This document shows, piece after piece, positions 25,396 through 35,039 of a stretch of DNA of 47,067 nt; position 1 is the first letter of the stretch, and each line of letters begins with the position of its first letter. This DNA is from Giesbergeria sp. (GTDB lineage: Bacteria > Pseudomonadota > Gammaproteobacteria > Burkholderiales > Burkholderiaceae_C), in assembly GCA_017985015.1 (NCBI GenBank), contig JAGNYI010000023.1, positions 1-47,067 of the forward strand. The letters are read 5' to 3'. The notes below the pieces were generated by a model that was not told the DNA's origin, ran no database searches, and saw only the letters and a program-made list of their open reading frames with translations. The translations under genes and the position numbers were made by a program.

Positions 25396-26922
25396 ATGGC
25401 TGAAAGAACTCCCTCGGACATCGCGCGCGAAACCCTCAAGCAGCTGGCCGTCCGGCGATTGGCGCCAACGCCGGAAAATTTTTCCCAGATTTACGACGAA
25501 ATCTCGGGCTCGCGCAGCCCGCCTGTGTTCCCTGAAGGGCCGCTGCGCCAGATTTTGCGCGTCGTGCCCGGCCAGACGCCGGTGCAGCGCCGTCTGCTCG
25601 ACCAGTTTGAAAAGGCTGTGACGGCCCATGACTGGAGTGCGATCCAGGCGGTGGTGGTGGGTTACGCCAAACTCGGGCTCAGCGGGGCGGTAGTTGCCGA
25701 GCCAGACGCGCTCACGCCTCCAGCCGCCGTGCTACCCGACGAGTTGGCCGAGCAGATTGCGCGGCTGGTAGAAAACACACTGACCGGCCTGAGCTCCGAC
25801 GATGCCCGCCTGCATTTGCTCGGCACGCAATTGCTGCAATTTCTGCGTTCTCCCGCGCCGCCGGCGAGCACGCTGCAACTCATGCTCGCCAATTTCAGCT
25901 TTCGGCTCTCGTTTGCTGCGGAGGACCAGGCCGCAGTTCGCGCCCTGTTGCTTGAATTGCTGAACATGGTGTTTCAGAACATGGTCGCGCTGAGCCTGGA
26001 CGACCGATGGCTGTCCGGCCAGACGCAGGCCCTGGTCGATGCGACAGCGCAGCCGCTGACGCTCAGGCGGTTGGACGATGTGCAGCGGCGCCTGAAGGAT
26101 GTGATTTTCAAACAGACCGAGGCCAAGGAGCGCATGGTTGAGGCACAAGAGCAGATGAAAGAAATGCTCAGCGTCTTCATCGCACGCCTGGGCGCCATCA
26201 CCCAATCGAGTGACAGCTTTCACACCACCATCGAACAGTGCGCTGCACAGATCGCGCGCGCCACCACACTGGACGAGATCACGCCCGTACTCCAGCAGGT
26301 GATGGGCGCCACGCGTTCCATGGCGCTGGACAGCCGCGTGGCCCACGAAGAACTGAACGAACTGCGCCAGCGCGCGCAGGAAAAACAGGAAGAACTGGTT
26401 CGTCTGCAGCAGTCGCTCGACCATGTCAGCCAGCAGGCGCGCCACGATTCGCTGACGGGCTCGCTCAATCGCAAAGGGCTCGACGAAGTGATGGGACGTG
26501 AGATTTCACGCTCGCGCCGCGCCGAGAATCCGCTCTGCGTGGCTTTGCTGGACGTGGACAATTTCAAACAGATCAATGACCGACTCGGCCACGCCACGGG
26601 CGACGCGGCCTTGGTTCACCTGGCTGAAGTGGTGCGCACCGTCATGCGCCCGCAGGACATGCTTGCCCGCTACGGGGGCGAAGAATTCGTCATCGTGCTT
26701 CCCGACACCGGGCTCGCTGCGGGCGTCGAAGCCATGCAGCGCCTGCAGCGCGAGCTGACAAAAAACTTTTTCCTTAAAGACAACGAAAAACTCCTCATCA
26801 CCTTCAGCGCAGGCGTCGCGCAGATGGCAGCCAGCGAAGACAGCCAGGACACCATCAACCGGGCAGACCAAGCGATGTACCTTGCCAAACGCCAAGGCAA
26901 GAACCGCGTCGTTGCCGCCTGA
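25396..26922 (+). CDS. Soluble GGDEF diguanylate cyclase
   Basis: This 508-residue cytoplasmic protein probably makes cyclic di-GMP. The C-terminal GGDEF domain (about 345-505) contains the active-site GGEEF at 427-431. A complete inhibitory I-site RPQD (418-421) lies exactly five residues before it, so product inhibition is likely. Other conserved parts are HDSLTGSLNRKGL, DVDNFKQINDRLGHATGDAA and RADQAMYLAKRQGKNR. A coiled coil (about 320-345) precedes it. The N-terminal 300 residues have no known sensor domain that I recognise. They begin with a conserved-looking ARETLKQLAVRRLAPTPENF segment. No membrane helix is visible. It is followed after 21 bp by the phoD-like gene. Confidence 0.88.
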   Translation: MAERTPSDIARETLKQLAVRRLAPTPENFSQIYDEISGSRSPPVFPEGPLRQILRVVPGQTPVQRRLLDQFEKAVTAHDWSAIQAVVVGYAKLGLSGAVVAEPDALTPPAAVLPDELAEQIARLVENTLTGLSSDDARLHLLGTQLLQFLRSPAPPASTLQLMLANFSFRLSFAAEDQAAVRALLLELLNMVFQNMVALSLDDRWLSGQTQALVDATAQPLTLRRLDDVQRRLKDVIFKQTEAKERMVEAQEQMKEMLSVFIARLGAITQSSDSFHTTIEQCAAQIARATTLDEITPVLQQVMGATRSMALDSRVAHEELNELRQRAQEKQEELVRLQQSLDHVSQQARHDSLTGSLNRKGLDEVMGREISRSRRAENPLCVALLDVDNFKQINDRLGHATGDAALVHLAEVVRTVMRPQDMLARYGGEEFVIVLPDTGLAAGVEAMQRLQRELTKNFFLKDNEKLLITFSAGVAQMAASEDSQDTINRADQAMYLAKRQGKNRVVAA

Positions 26923-30334: not shown

Positions 30335-32020
30335 TCACGCGCCTCGGTTGCGCTGCTTGGCGCGGTACATGGCGGCATCGGCGGCCGCCATCAGGCCGCC
30401 GGCATCCGCCGCATCGCGCGGAAAGAGCGCAAAACCCACACTCGCGCGTATGGGCTGCACCTGCCCATTGAAGTCAAGCGGCTGCGCCAGGGCCTGTTCC
30501 AGTTTCGCTGCAATCTGGGCAGCCTGCTCTGGTGCGTCGAGGTTCTCGCAGAGCACGGTAAATTCATCTCCTGCAAGCCGTGCCACCGTATCGCTCTCGC
30601 GAACAGTCTGCGTTGTCGTCCACGCCACGGCCTTGAGCACTGTGTCGCCGGCAGCGTGCCCCAAAGCGTCGTTGATCGCCTTGAAGTCATCCAGATCCAC
30701 AAACAGCAACGCACACAGGTGTCCGGTGCGTTTCGCCATGGCGAGCGCCTGGGCAAGTCGCTGCTCGAACATGCGGCGATTGGGTAGGCCCGTCAGAGTA
30801 TCGTGATACGCCAGATGCGCCATGTCGTGGTGGCGCGCGCTCAGTTCATCGAGTTGCTGTCCAATCTGCTGCTCCATCTGACTCAGGCTGCGCGCAAGTT
30901 CACCCAGTTCGTCATGCCGATGCACCGGCAGCGCGCCGTGACTGCGGCCTGCCGCAAAAGCCTGCGTTGCGCGCACCATGACCTTGATCGGGCCAGTGAC
31001 CACGCGCGAGATCAGCGCCGCCAGCAGCGCGGCTGCCGCACTGAGCACTGCCAGCACCCACAAGATGCGCCGCCCAAAATTCAGAACCTCGTCCTGCACC
31101 ACGTTCAGCGGCTGTGAGAGGCCGACGATCATGAAGCGCCCGTCTTCCTGTTCGCCGTATGGCAAGCGGGCGAAGGCATAGGCCTGGCGCACGGTCCCAC
31201 CGTCGTTCTGACTGAATACCTGCTCGTTCTGCTTGCCCTCCAACAGCGCTCGCACCGAGGCAAAGCGCTCCTGGATCAGGATGCGCTCGCCCTGGTGCTC
31301 GGCGCCGAACACCTGTGCGGCATCGGGGTGGTCAAGAAAATCACCCCATTGGTTGCTGAGATAAAAATCCAACCCTTTGGGCAGATTGGCACGGAAAATG
31401 GCAAGAAATGCGGGCGCGCTCACATCCACCACCAGTACGCCGAACAAGTGCCCAGCGCTGGTGACGGGCATCGACACATGAAAAACTGCTTCGGACGAGG
31501 TGGCTGCCTCGTCGAATGACATCGCCAGACTTAGCTCCGTTACGTAGCTGGTGTCGGCCGGTAAATTCAAGGCCTCGAAAAAGAAAGGTCGGTAGGCCTG
31601 CTCATGGAGTTCGGCCTGCTTGACCTGCACGACGGATTCGCCCTGGCGGCGCACCCGCACCAGTTCAAGCCCATGGTCGGCAACGCCGATGAGCCGGATC
31701 TGGCGATAGGCCGGCCTGGCCCCCAAGGTAGCCTTGAGCACATCGGCCACCGCGGCGCGCTGCCGCGCGTCGAGCGGTTCTGCGCCGCGCGCCAGTGAAG
31801 ACGCCGCCGTTGTCAGCATCTGAGCATCACGCGTAACCGACCCGAGTCCCGTCTGGAGGTAACGCACCAGCAAGCGTGTGGTGCCAAGCAATGCACTCTC
31901 TGCACGTGCCTGCAGCAGGCTGCGTCCGGCATCAAAGGTGTAGTAGGCAGCCAACGACGCCGCAAGCACGCTGAAGCTGGCAAGCAATATGCCCAGGCGA
32001 AAGGCAATGCCAGTGCGCAT
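30335..32020 (-). CDS. Membrane-bound HAMP-GGDEF diguanylate cyclase
   Basis: This 561-residue protein is a transmembrane sensor with a c-di-GMP-synthesising output. It has a membrane helix at 7-27, a periplasmic sensor of about 290 residues (Cache-like, 28-317), a second helix (318-340), a HAMP linker (341-395) and a GGDEF domain (400-560). The active-site motif is AGDEF (483-487) instead of GGDEF. An I-site RESD (474-477) lies five residues before it, so it may be active with product inhibition, but the variant makes activity less certain. The ATG at 32020 lies 2 nt after the stop of the periplasmic binding-protein gene upstream, so the two are tightly coupled. The periplasmic part probably receives the binding protein or its ligand. 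Confidence 0.88.
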   Translation of the reverse strand: MRTGIAFRLGILLASFSVLAASLAAYYTFDAGRSLLQARAESALLGTTRLLVRYLQTGLGSVTRDAQMLTTAASSLARGAEPLDARQRAAVADVLKATLGARPAYRQIRLIGVADHGLELVRVRRQGESVVQVKQAELHEQAYRPFFFEALNLPADTSYVTELSLAMSFDEAATSSEAVFHVSMPVTSAGHLFGVLVVDVSAPAFLAIFRANLPKGLDFYLSNQWGDFLDHPDAAQVFGAEHQGERILIQERFASVRALLEGKQNEQVFSQNDGGTVRQAYAFARLPYGEQEDGRFMIVGLSQPLNVVQDEVLNFGRRILWVLAVLSAAAALLAALISRVVTGPIKVMVRATQAFAAGRSHGALPVHRHDELGELARSLSQMEQQIGQQLDELSARHHDMAHLAYHDTLTGLPNRRMFEQRLAQALAMAKRTGHLCALLFVDLDDFKAINDALGHAAGDTVLKAVAWTTTQTVRESDTVARLAGDEFTVLCENLDAPEQAAQIAAKLEQALAQPLDFNGQVQPIRASVGFALFPRDAADAGGLMAAADAAMYRAKQRNRGA

Positions 32021-32022
32021 GG

Positions 32023-33099
32023 TCAGAAGCGCTCCGGCCGCTCGCCCGAAACGATGCGTCGCCATAGCCGTGAGCGCAGGGATTCATCTTCCAGCGGTTC
32101 CAGCCACAGAATTTTTGGGCTGGCTGCGCCTGCCTCAAGGCCTGGCGCTGGCTCCAAGGTGTTGGCCAAACCCTGGCGCAGCGTCAACGTCTGGCTGACC
32201 GACGCCTCCAGCATGTAGTTGATCCATTGGTGGGCCAGTAATGGTTCACGTGCCCCTGCAGGCACTGCCCAGCAATCGAGCCAGGCAAGTGCTCCCTCGC
32301 GGGGAATCACGTAGCCAACATCAATTCCCGCATCGCGCAGGAGCTTCAATTGCTGCTGCCCGTAATTGGCAAATAGCAGTGCGGCCTTGTGGTCCCGAAA
32401 CAATCGCACGGCTTCTTCAGGCAAGTTGTAGAACGCCAGCAGATTGCGCCGCAGCTCCACCAGATCGAGCGCCAGGCCGCGCATATTTTCGGGAGGGATA
32501 TGAAACGGTGGCAGTCCACGGTGCAGCGCAGCAAGAGAGAAGCCATGATTTGCACTGTCAAACTCCAGTACCCGGCCGCGCCATTTCGGGTCCCACAGCG
32601 CTGCCCACGAATCGGGCGGAGCCGCCCACTGCGTGCGGTCATAGATCAAGCCCATTTCTGACCAGGTGTAGGGCACTGCATAGACCCGCTCGGCATCCGA
32701 GATTCCAGCAATCAACGCGAGCGGGTGAAACCTCGGCAATTGGTGGGCAAGATTGGGAATTGCCTGCAGATTGAGCGGCTCCAGCTTCTTCGCAGCCACC
32801 AGTCGCGCGATCTCCACCGTATTGGCGGCCACCGCGTCAAACGCCGGCCGGGCGCTCGCCATCTGGCTGCGCAGGGCTTCGTCCGAGCTGACGATAGTCA
32901 CTTCGACGCGTACGCCATGGCGCTTTTCGAATTGCGCCACCACATCCGCGTCTGCATACCCCGGCCAGGCCAGCACACGCAGCAGCGGCGCCGCCTGCGC
33001 CAGCCCAGCAAACGCGGACAGCGTCAGCCAACCGGTCAATACCCATCGCAAGCTGGCAAACAAGCGCCCTAGAGCGCTTCGACCACCAATTGCCGCCAC
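32023..33099 (-). CDS. PotD/NspS-like periplasmic polyamine-binding protein, orphan
   Basis: This 358-residue secreted protein resembles spermidine/putrescine-binding proteins (PotD, NspS). It has a signal peptide ending near residue 37 (LAQA/AP). Family motifs include VYAVPYTWSEMGLIYD (139-154) and AWLDCWAVPAG (272-282). In PotD the Trp and Asp of the equivalent segment contact the polyamine, and both are present here (W273, D275). The start is a GTG at 33099 with AAAGGTG upstream. No ABC permease or ATPase gene lies nearby. The gene is directly followed by a membrane GGDEF protein. I infer a sensory rather than a transport role, as for NspS-MbaA of Vibrio cholerae. The ligand itself is not shown by the sequence. 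Confidence 0.82.
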   Translation of the reverse strand: MAAIGGRSALGRLFASLRWVLTGWLTLSAFAGLAQAAPLLRVLAWPGYADADVVAQFEKRHGVRVEVTIVSSDEALRSQMASARPAFDAVAANTVEIARLVAAKKLEPLNLQAIPNLAHQLPRFHPLALIAGISDAERVYAVPYTWSEMGLIYDRTQWAAPPDSWAALWDPKWRGRVLEFDSANHGFSLAALHRGLPPFHIPPENMRGLALDLVELRRNLLAFYNLPEEAVRLFRDHKAALLFANYGQQQLKLLRDAGIDVGYVIPREGALAWLDCWAVPAGAREPLLAHQWINYMLEASVSQTLTLRQGLANTLEPAPGLEAGAASPKILWLEPLEDESLRSRLWRRIVSGERPERF

Positions 33100-33152
33100 G
33101 CATCACCTTTTTTGGATTTCGTAACAAACAGTTTACGCGGGACAATGATCCC

Positions 33153-35039
33153 GTGAGCATCCCGCAAACTTTTATCCAGGAACTTCTCTCTCGCGTCGAC
33201 GTGGTCGAGGTGGTTGGCCGCTATGTGCCACTGCGCAAGGCGGGAGCCAACTTCATGGGGTTGTGCCCTTTTCATGGCGAAAAGTCGCCCTCGTTCAGCG
33301 TGAGTCCATCGAAGCAATTTTTCCACTGCTTTGGCTGTGGAAAAAGCGGGAACGCCATTGGCTTTCTCATGGAGCATGCGGGAATGGGCTTTGTCGATGC
33401 GGTCGAAGACCTGGCGCGTCAGGTGGGCTTGAGCGTTCCCGACGATCATGTCGCGCCCGCCGACAAGGAGCGCGCCGCCGCTGCCCGCCAGCACCAAGCC
33501 ACCCTGAGCGAAACCTTGGAAAAGGCGGGCCAGGACTACCGCAAGCAGTTGCGGCAGTCACCGCGCGCCGTGGACTACCTCAAGGGGCGTGGCGTCTCGG
33601 GCGAAGTCGCCCAGCGCTACGGACTGGGTTACGCCCCCGAGGGCTGGCGTCACTTGGCCAGCGTGTTTGCACAGTACGACGACCCACTGCTGTCTGACAG
33701 CGGCCTGGTGATCGTGGGCGAAGAGGACGGCAAGCGCTACGACCGGTTTCGTGACCGCGTCATGTTCCCCATCCGCAACGTGAAGGGTGAATGCATCGGC
33801 TTCGGCGGGCGCGTGCTGGGCGACGACAAACCCAAATACCTCAATTCGCCCGAAACGCCCGTCTTCCACAAGGGCAGTGAGCTCTACGGACTCTACGAGG
33901 CGCGCACCGCCATTCGCGAAGCCGGATTTGCGCTCGTCACCGAAGGCTATATGGATGTGGTGGCGCTGGCCCAACTGGGGTTTGAGAACGCCGTCGCCAC
34001 CCTTGGCACAGCCTGCACAGCAGAACATATCGCCAAGCTGCTGCGCTTTACCGACAGCGTGGTCTTCAGCTTTGACGGCGACGCTGCGGGGCGCCGAGCT
34101 GCACGCAAGGCGCTGGACGCCGCCATTCCCCACGCGGCAGACACGCGCAGCGTCAAGTTTTTGTTCCTTCCCAGCGAGCACGATCCCGACAGTTTCGTGC
34201 GCGCCCATGGCGCCAGCGCGTTTTCTCGCCACATTGCCGACGCCATGCCCCTCAGCCGCTTTCTTGTGGAGGCGGCTGGTGAGCAATGCGATCTTGGAAC
34301 GCCAGAGGGCCGCGCCCACATGGCGAGCAACGCCCGCCTGCTTTGGGAACCCTTGCCCGATGGCGCGCTCAAGCGCCAGCTGCTCGGCGAGCTGGCCACA
34401 TTGGCACAGCTCGATCCGCTGGACCTTCAGGAGGTGTGGGAGCAGGTAGCCCTGCGCGGGCGCCCGCCTGCTGCGCCAGCGCCGCGCAAAGCGGCTGACG
34501 CCCGGCGCCCGGCCCGGGCCGAGCCCGGCCGAGGCTTTGCTCCCTCCAGCACCAGCACCAGCACCAGCACCAGCACCAGCGCCCGACGCCGGCGGGCAGC
34601 ACCGGCGGGCCGCGTTGACCATGCGGCGCGGCTGCTGCTTTCGCACATGGAGTTTCTAGACGCCCTGTCGCACGAAGACAACGCCTTGCTTAGCGGCCAG
34701 GAACCGCCGCACGGCCCCTTGTTCGCGTGGATCGAGGCGCAATTTCATGAGCAGGGCGCGCTGCCCTGGGCCGTGTTGCGCGAGTCGCTGCGTGGCCATG
34801 GCTGCGAAGCGCTGGCCGAGCGTGTAATGACCGGTGCACACGCCCAGACCGAAGGCGATACGCACGAACTGCGCCTGGAACTGCGCGGTCTGCTCAACCG
34901 CATGCTGGCAGAACAATTGCGGGTGCAGGAAACCGAAGCCTTGACGGCGGCCAACACCGACCCCGCGGCCTTGCAGCGCTACCGCGCGCTGCAGGCGCGG
35001 CGGGTGGCTCTTGAGCGTTTGGCGCCCCAGGTCTCTTGA
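33153..35039 (+). CDS. dnaG: DNA primase
   Basis: DnaG makes RNA primers for DNA replication. The 628-residue protein has an N-terminal CHC2 zinc-binding domain (CPFHGEKSPSF with FHCFGCGKSGNAIGF). The TOPRIM catalytic core follows (EGYMDVVALAQLGFENAVA, and FSFDGDAAGRRAARKA). A C-terminal DnaB-helicase-interacting domain ends the protein. A Pro/Arg-rich linker near residue 455-490 carries a Ser-Thr run coded by a hexanucleotide repeat. The start is the GTG at 33153. The frame opens earlier, but the family N-terminus (IPQTFIQELLSRVDVVEVVG) begins there. The promoter should lie in the 53 bp region shared with the divergent binding-protein gene. rpoD lies 251 bp downstream. Confidence 0.96.
   Translation: MSIPQTFIQELLSRVDVVEVVGRYVPLRKAGANFMGLCPFHGEKSPSFSVSPSKQFFHCFGCGKSGNAIGFLMEHAGMGFVDAVEDLARQVGLSVPDDHVAPADKERAAAARQHQATLSETLEKAGQDYRKQLRQSPRAVDYLKGRGVSGEVAQRYGLGYAPEGWRHLASVFAQYDDPLLSDSGLVIVGEEDGKRYDRFRDRVMFPIRNVKGECIGFGGRVLGDDKPKYLNSPETPVFHKGSELYGLYEARTAIREAGFALVTEGYMDVVALAQLGFENAVATLGTACTAEHIAKLLRFTDSVVFSFDGDAAGRRAARKALDAAIPHAADTRSVKFLFLPSEHDPDSFVRAHGASAFSRHIADAMPLSRFLVEAAGEQCDLGTPEGRAHMASNARLLWEPLPDGALKRQLLGELATLAQLDPLDLQEVWEQVALRGRPPAAPAPRKAADARRPARAEPGRGFAPSSTSTSTSTSTSARRRRAAPAGRVDHAARLLLSHMEFLDALSHEDNALLSGQEPPHGPLFAWIEAQFHEQGALPWAVLRESLRGHGCEALAERVMTGAHAQTEGDTHELRLELRGLLNRMLAEQLRVQETEALTAANTDPAALQRYRALQARRVALERLAPQVS
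34548..34580 (+). repeat. AGCACC x5.5 hexanucleotide repeat inside dnaG
   Basis: Five perfect copies of AGCACC plus a final AGC lie in frame and encode alternating Ser-Thr in the linker between the primase core and the helicase-binding domain (residues 466-476). Slippage would change linker length by two residues per unit without shifting the frame. Confidence 0.9.

Follow-up and report, generated by a model that had tools for sequence, protein, structure and literature searches.

A solute-binding protein gene paired with a diguanylate cyclase gene in Burkholderiales and Pseudomonas: a probable c-di-GMP switch that seems distinct in origin from NspS-MbaA

What is the role of a periplasmic solute-binding protein (SBP) whose gene adjoins that of a membrane diguanylate cyclase (DGC), with no transporter gene nearby? 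The question is raised by a gene pair in the window, the 47,067-nucleotide stretch of Giesbergeria sp. DNA (contig JAGNYI010000023.1) analysed here. An earlier note on this DNA had likened the pair to the norspermidine-sensing NspS-MbaA system and proposed a betaproteobacterial switch responding to polyamines or another cationic amine. Our analyses favour another reading, which we consider reasonably probable as a whole: the pair would form a ligand-operated c-di-GMP switch, in which an ABC-importer SBP devoid of its transporter was recruited, independently of NspS-MbaA, as a DGC sensor whose ligand is perhaps a sugar or a sugar acid. SBPs are described as stimulating chemoreceptors, kinases and diguanylate cyclases or phosphodiesterases, and the two references given for the last class in the available text of PMC9602780 deal with NspS-MbaA and with swarming of Vibrio parahaemolyticus, neither being the pair described here.

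Coordinates, Pfam matches and hydropathy agree on a binding-protein gene immediately upstream of a gene for a two-helix HAMP-GGDEF protein, as first described (Table 1). The GTG start of the SBP gene is supported by the Simplicispira hankyongi homologue, a 92% match across the entire window SBP (residues 1-358). An in-frame ATG at 32065 is an alternative start for the DGC and would give a 43-nt overlap with the SBP gene. By family score (103 bits with SBP_bac_8, for a cut-off of 27) and by fold, the first protein is an SBP_bac_8/PotD-fold binding protein, and its AlphaFold model has a mean pLDDT of 90.1. According to the model its N-terminal residues likely form a signal peptide, and no 19-residue window of the SBP rises above the hydropathy threshold used. 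The second protein scores 44 bits with the PF21623 sensor signature (cut-off 27), 40 with HAMP (25) and 154 with GGDEF (24), and the Pfam scan found no EAL domain in it. Hydrophobicity peaks at its residues about 3-29 and 315-349, as expected of two membrane helices, and a third, weaker peak (189-213) lies within strands of the sensor domain, which is modelled as a double-Cache fold. The catalytic columns are invariant in 18 aligned rows, and with its intact GGDEF domain and catalytic motif the protein is predicted to be an active diguanylate cyclase.

Table 1. Features of the SBP-DGC gene pair in the window
Feature	Position	Strand	Details
SBP gene (periplasmic solute-binding protein, SBP_bac_8)	32023..33099	minus	358 aa; GTG start at 33099, stop ends 32023
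DGC gene (membrane diguanylate cyclase)	30335..32020	minus	561 aa; ATG at 32020, stop ends 30335
2-nt gap, SBP stop to DGC start	32021..32022	minus	sequence
Likely SBP signal peptide, residues about 1-36	32992..33099	minus	modelled N-terminal helix 9-31, then AQA-A
SBP W273-L274-D275	32275..32283	minus	invariant in 18 family members; kept in importer relatives
DGC periplasmic sensor domain, double-Cache-like fold, residues about 34-314	31079..31921	minus	
DGC HAMP domain, residues 336-382	30875..31015	minus	Pfam
DGC GGDEF domain, residues 404-559, motif AGDEF	30344..30811	minus	Pfam and solved relatives
RESD, candidate product-inhibition (I) site, DGC residues 474-477	30590..30601	minus	five residues before AGDEF; sequence

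Directly next to the pair lie a gene for an acyl-CoA synthetase and dnaG. In the region 33090-33153 the SBP gene and dnaG diverge, and a dnaG start at the GTG at 33153 would leave about 53 bp between the two. As the earlier note had remarked, there is no ABC permease or ATPase close by: none was found among the six adjacent proteins or among nine further window genes with Pfam hits (ten scanned), which are housekeeping or enzyme genes, for example of the hisS, hflK, bamB and rlmN types, and the window locus has neither the permease nor the ATPase gene that accompanies the SBP gene in an ABC importer operon. A second GGDEF protein of 508 residues is encoded in the window (25396-26922, plus strand), about 3.4 kb from the pair and without an adjoining SBP. 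The draft genome (95.6% complete) encodes three SBP_bac_8 proteins above the cut-off and two below it. By our reading, the other two above the cut-off are a UgpB-like protein with a downstream permease and an iron-type SBP, and a PF13416 search of this 95.6% complete draft revealed no other PotD/PotF-like SBP. A permease from the nearest importer relatives, used as a query, gave one weak match in the genome (52 bits, 231-aa frame), beyond which no cognate permease for the window SBP was found there.

Is this arrangement conserved? The SBP was detected in 19 of 150 family-level genomes at E 1e-40 or better, and a DGC relative adjoins it in all 19 loci. When searched alone, the sensor domain was found in 20 of these genomes, namely all 19 SBP carriers and one more, which corresponds to a Fisher p of 3.6e-23 for co-occurrence over 150 genomes that are phylogenetically non-independent. 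In the additional genome (G114), which has no SBP, the match is weaker (178 bits) and lies in an 1813-aa frame. Besides the window DGC, 17 of the 18 partners are devoid of EAL, and the last (L027) is a 1388-aa PAS/GAF-GGDEF-EAL protein. In genome G027 (L034), the SBP frame is interrupted, by decay or sequencing error, and the DGC frame is open; this SBP was left out of set A1. The co-occurrence in Comamonadaceae that had been suggested as a check of the pairing is thus found, and it extends beyond that family.

Among named relatives, we analysed the best 80 named loci of at least 480 confirmed candidates. A sensor frame lies directly downstream of the SBP gene in 79 of these 80 loci, and the contig ends at the SBP in the other (L188). 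The distance between the SBP stop and the first column of the sensor profile is 56-146 nt in the 79 loci, with a median of 63. This spacing is free of any choice of DGC start codon; some of our gap counts placed the DGC start at the codon closest to the SBP stop and are therefore biased towards short gaps. The sensor frame bears GGDEF in 78 of the best 80 named loci, including two in which the DGC frame is split (L191 and L218), and the contig ends inside the sensor in L186. EAL was found in none of the 78, a silence that is meaningful because the same query detects EAL in L103, L124 and 12 MbaA-type proteins. Across 39 loci with 16 genus-level labels, no frames other than those of the SBP and the DGC reach all 16; the next-widest recurring clusters are apparent antisense shadows of these two, after which the maximum is 4 labels. 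A 4-label cluster seems to include the dnaG-rpoD side of the window. The pair alone recurs at these 39 loci, and the neighbourhoods of the DGC-linked genes yielded no clue to the ligand. Our samples overlap in part, L020 and L167 being identical and L021 and L194 lying on contigs of equal length.

The SBP-DGC pair is thus a conserved two-gene module. Chance neighbourhood is argued against by the two-way co-occurrence, the downstream spacing and the recurrence of the pair alone. The prospect that homologues always lie apart from the GGDEF gene, which would have undermined the earlier proposal, is contradicted by their adjacency in nearly all close relatives. We also considered a fused SBP-DGC protein, and by our reading the long L002 and L206 frames are unstopped reading frames.

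We searched 349 order-level and 398 phylum-level genomes by profile, with up to 5 first-look candidates per genome so that lower-scoring SBPs may be missed; the matches fell into family members (296 bits or more) and other SBPs (170 or less). All 23 order-level relatives from genomes other than our own score above 440 bits; 12 have a GGDEF-only partner, 1 a GGDEF-EAL partner and 10 no sensor frame nearby (L112, L114-L120, L061 and L065). Among the neighbours of eight sampled free-standing SBPs are housekeeping enzymes as well as a chemoreceptor and a histidine kinase. Five of the ten genomes without an adjoining DGC have weak sensor matches (65-88 bits) in other frames of 1264-1366 aa. As a DGC is missing beside 10 of these 23 order-level SBPs, the function of the SBP need not involve one. 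The phylum sample added 12 family members at 296 bits or more, of which 5 are paired with GGDEF-only and 1 with GGDEF-EAL proteins, and 6 are importer SBPs within ABC operons of alphaproteobacteria-like genomes. Pseudomonas carries the pair alongside Burkholderiales, and the module is therefore not exclusively betaproteobacterial.

GGDEF-only output, as initially described, is true of the window DGC and of nearly all close relatives. The 97 DGC sequences collected comprise 61 with GGDEF, 29 with AGDEF, one with HGDEF, one with SGDEF and five with no such motif. Of these five, three are short frames and two are full-length proteins whose site is degenerate. The latter two, from L240 (Aquabacterium) and L197 (Burkholderiaceae), may have an output other than cyclase activity. 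Of the 92 relatives that have a motif, 72 also carry RxxD. The partners of three family members (L027, L103 and L124) are GGDEF-EAL proteins, indicating that the output domain changed within the family.

The window pair resembles NspS-MbaA, known from Vibrio cholerae and Sinorhizobium meliloti, in that an orphan PotD-fold SBP gene lies directly upstream of that of a two-helix HAMP-GGDEF protein, in the near-overlap of the two genes and in presumed periplasmic docking. However, the SBP comes from another branch. Our comparison set consisted of 12 Vibrio-type NspS, each adjoining a GGDEF/EAL-type protein, out of 20 stretches from a PotD search, the genus Vibrio being inferred from two large replicons and tandem PotD. 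These proteins are 20-25% identical to the window SBP and form one clade (100/100) that excludes it; PotD, PotF and other importer SBPs fall between that clade and the window family. The window clade groups with importer SBPs at 100/97 and 100/99, and in the midpoint-rooted trees importer SBPs are at the base of the family, with DGC-linked and free-standing SBPs above. Union of NspS with the DGC-linked and free-standing SBPs, a grouping chosen after seeing the tree, was rejected (AU p = 1.8e-5), and a single clade of DGC-linked SBPs was not (p 0.17). The profile of the window sensor gave no match at E 1e-3 on the 12 MbaA-type proteins, and HHalign gave a probability of 13% over 62 residues between the window sensor and the MbaA periplasmic domain. 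From the trees and the AU test, the SBP-DGC pair seems to have arisen separately from NspS-MbaA. The supposed kinship with NspS is not supported, given the separate clade and the AU test, and a polyamine ligand deduced from it is weakened on the same two grounds, together with the low identity and the pocket changes described below. In L162 (2530-5062, minus strand), a PotD-side SBP on a long branch adjoins a 475-aa GGDEF frame that gave no match to the window-type sensor, possibly a third, separate SBP-DGC pairing.

The outputs also differ: in the available text of PMC9993111, the published MbaAs are SGDEF-EAL or EVL proteins devoid of RxxD, whereas the window DGC is GGDEF-only, lacks EAL and retains the I-site. 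That survey found NspS-MbaA in 222 of 16,076 complete proteobacterial genomes, and the text available to us contains no mention of Betaproteobacteria, Burkholderi- or Comamonad-. We found no publication on the present pair in the open PMC literature, and the SBP-DGC module is real and widespread and appears to be undescribed. SBP-controlled c-di-GMP enzymes are already known; here the ligand is probably different and the origin seems separate.

Which ligand might the SBP bind? Eight predicted norspermidine contacts of NspS are listed in the available text of PMC9993111, and in our alignment three of them are identical in the window SBP (W41, W261 and D263, corresponding to W45, W273 and D275), one is conservative (D70, E74) and four are changed (D90, F131, Y233 and D236, replaced by N93, T145, N245 and Q248, with an uncertainty of a residue or two in the alignment of positions 243-250). 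By fixed offset, a method that fails at indels, all eight were recovered in 4 of the 7 NspS compared. The residues of PotD that we take to be its spermidine contacts, E36, D168 and E171, correspond to G47, S182 and H185; the first and last of these do not vary in the 18-member alignment. W273 and D275, which the earlier note had singled out as polyamine-contacting residues, are correctly numbered and invariant in 18 family members, yet importer SBPs of sugar-type operons retain them too, and they are therefore no marker of a polyamine site. In fold searches, polyamine receptors (PotF and PotD) and YdcS ranked first and sugar-opine receptors lower.

The nearest importer SBPs sharing pocket residues are those of alphaproteobacterial SBP-ATPase-permease-permease operons (L126-L129), with 38-40% identity to the window SBP (37% for L129). 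Common to both are H185, N93, T94, N245-Y246-G247 and Q249-Q250, the alignment of 243-250 again being uncertain. The importer SBPs belong to complete ABC operons beside sugar-type enzymes, whereas the window SBP is associated with a DGC. All four operons include an ILVD/EDD dehydratase and an SDR, for which the best NCBIfam names were L-arabinonate dehydratase and D-xylose 1-dehydrogenase, both below cut-off (two dehydratases and one SDR run). As L127-L129 are mutually 94-97% identical, the four sugar-type loci count as no more than two independent ones. The importer SBP that the tree places closest to the DGC clade, L131, differs in its pocket (Y185, A245); one informative neighbour of it was scanned, and no sugar-acid enzyme was found there. 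We examined 5 of the 710 matching plasmid records; three plasmid relatives, with 34-36% identity, are importer SBPs among sugar-type enzymes. At a distance of 3-4 kb from plasmid relative L143 there are also genes for a tyramine oxidase and an acetyltransferase, and the L142 locus includes an aminotransferase. Judging from sequence, the ligand is probably not a polyamine, and our best guess is a sugar, a sugar acid or a similar polyol. The evidence speaks more for 'not polyamine' than for 'sugar', and we regard the sugar reading as a lead.

In the switch that we propose, in which docking, direction of regulation, enzyme activity and ligand class are all putative, the SBP would be exported to the periplasm, bind a small molecule and, in one ligand state, dock on the double-Cache domain of the neighbouring DGC, by analogy with what is thought for NspS-MbaA. 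The signal would reach the GGDEF dimer by way of the second membrane helix and the HAMP domain and alter c-di-GMP synthesis, with product inhibition via the RxxD site. The ancestor would have been an ABC-importer SBP that lost its transporter and then took on a sensor role. LuxP-LuxQ provides a parallel, since there too a periplasmic SBP signals via a membrane sensor with a Cache/PAS-like periplasmic domain; however, LuxP belongs to another SBP family and LuxQ is a histidine kinase. More tentatively, at somewhat under even chances, we propose that a sugar- or sugar-acid-importer SBP, having lost its transporter, turned into the dedicated periplasmic receptor of a GGDEF-only cyclase and so gave rise to this widespread beta- and gammaproteobacterial c-di-GMP input. 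Control of c-di-GMP by SBPs would then have had two or more origins, with ligands of different classes.

Direct binding of small ligands is common among double-Cache domains, and that of the DGC might do so, the SBP delivering or sequestering the ligand without docking; contact would account more readily for the strict pairing with a dedicated SBP, and we deem this the least probable of the alternatives. Scarcely more probable is that the SBP still serves an unlinked ABC transporter, with the DGC as a mere neighbour, or that both functions coexist. The use of such a protein by a permease, which the earlier note had envisaged as an objection, is half true, as it applies to distant alphaproteobacterial relatives in complete importer operons; these speak for this reading, as do the 10 order-level SBPs standing alone, and unlinked partners are possible. 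Against it are the near-perfect DGC linkage in the family and named samples and the single weak permease match in the genome. Somewhat less improbable, though still unlikely, is a betaproteobacterial polyamine sensor of the NspS-MbaA type acting through the DGC. It would account for the gene order and near-overlap, which are as in published nspS-mbaA (PMC9993111), for the retention of W45, W273 and D275 and for the best structural matches being PotF, PotD and YdcS, and the PF13416 search leaves the window SBP as the only polyamine-type candidate in its genome. These points are countered by the separate clade and low identity to NspS, the four changed contacts, the replacement of the PotD acidic residues, the absence of EAL and the lack of a sensor match on MbaA.

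If this is correct, many environmental, plant- or host-associated Burkholderiales and Pseudomonas would possess an undescribed c-di-GMP input, which surveys keyed on NspS-MbaA would miss. Our observations also suggest caution, since a PotD-like SBP should not automatically be taken for a polyamine receptor. As the family comprises importer-linked, cyclase-linked and free-standing members, it opens the step from transport to signalling to direct study.
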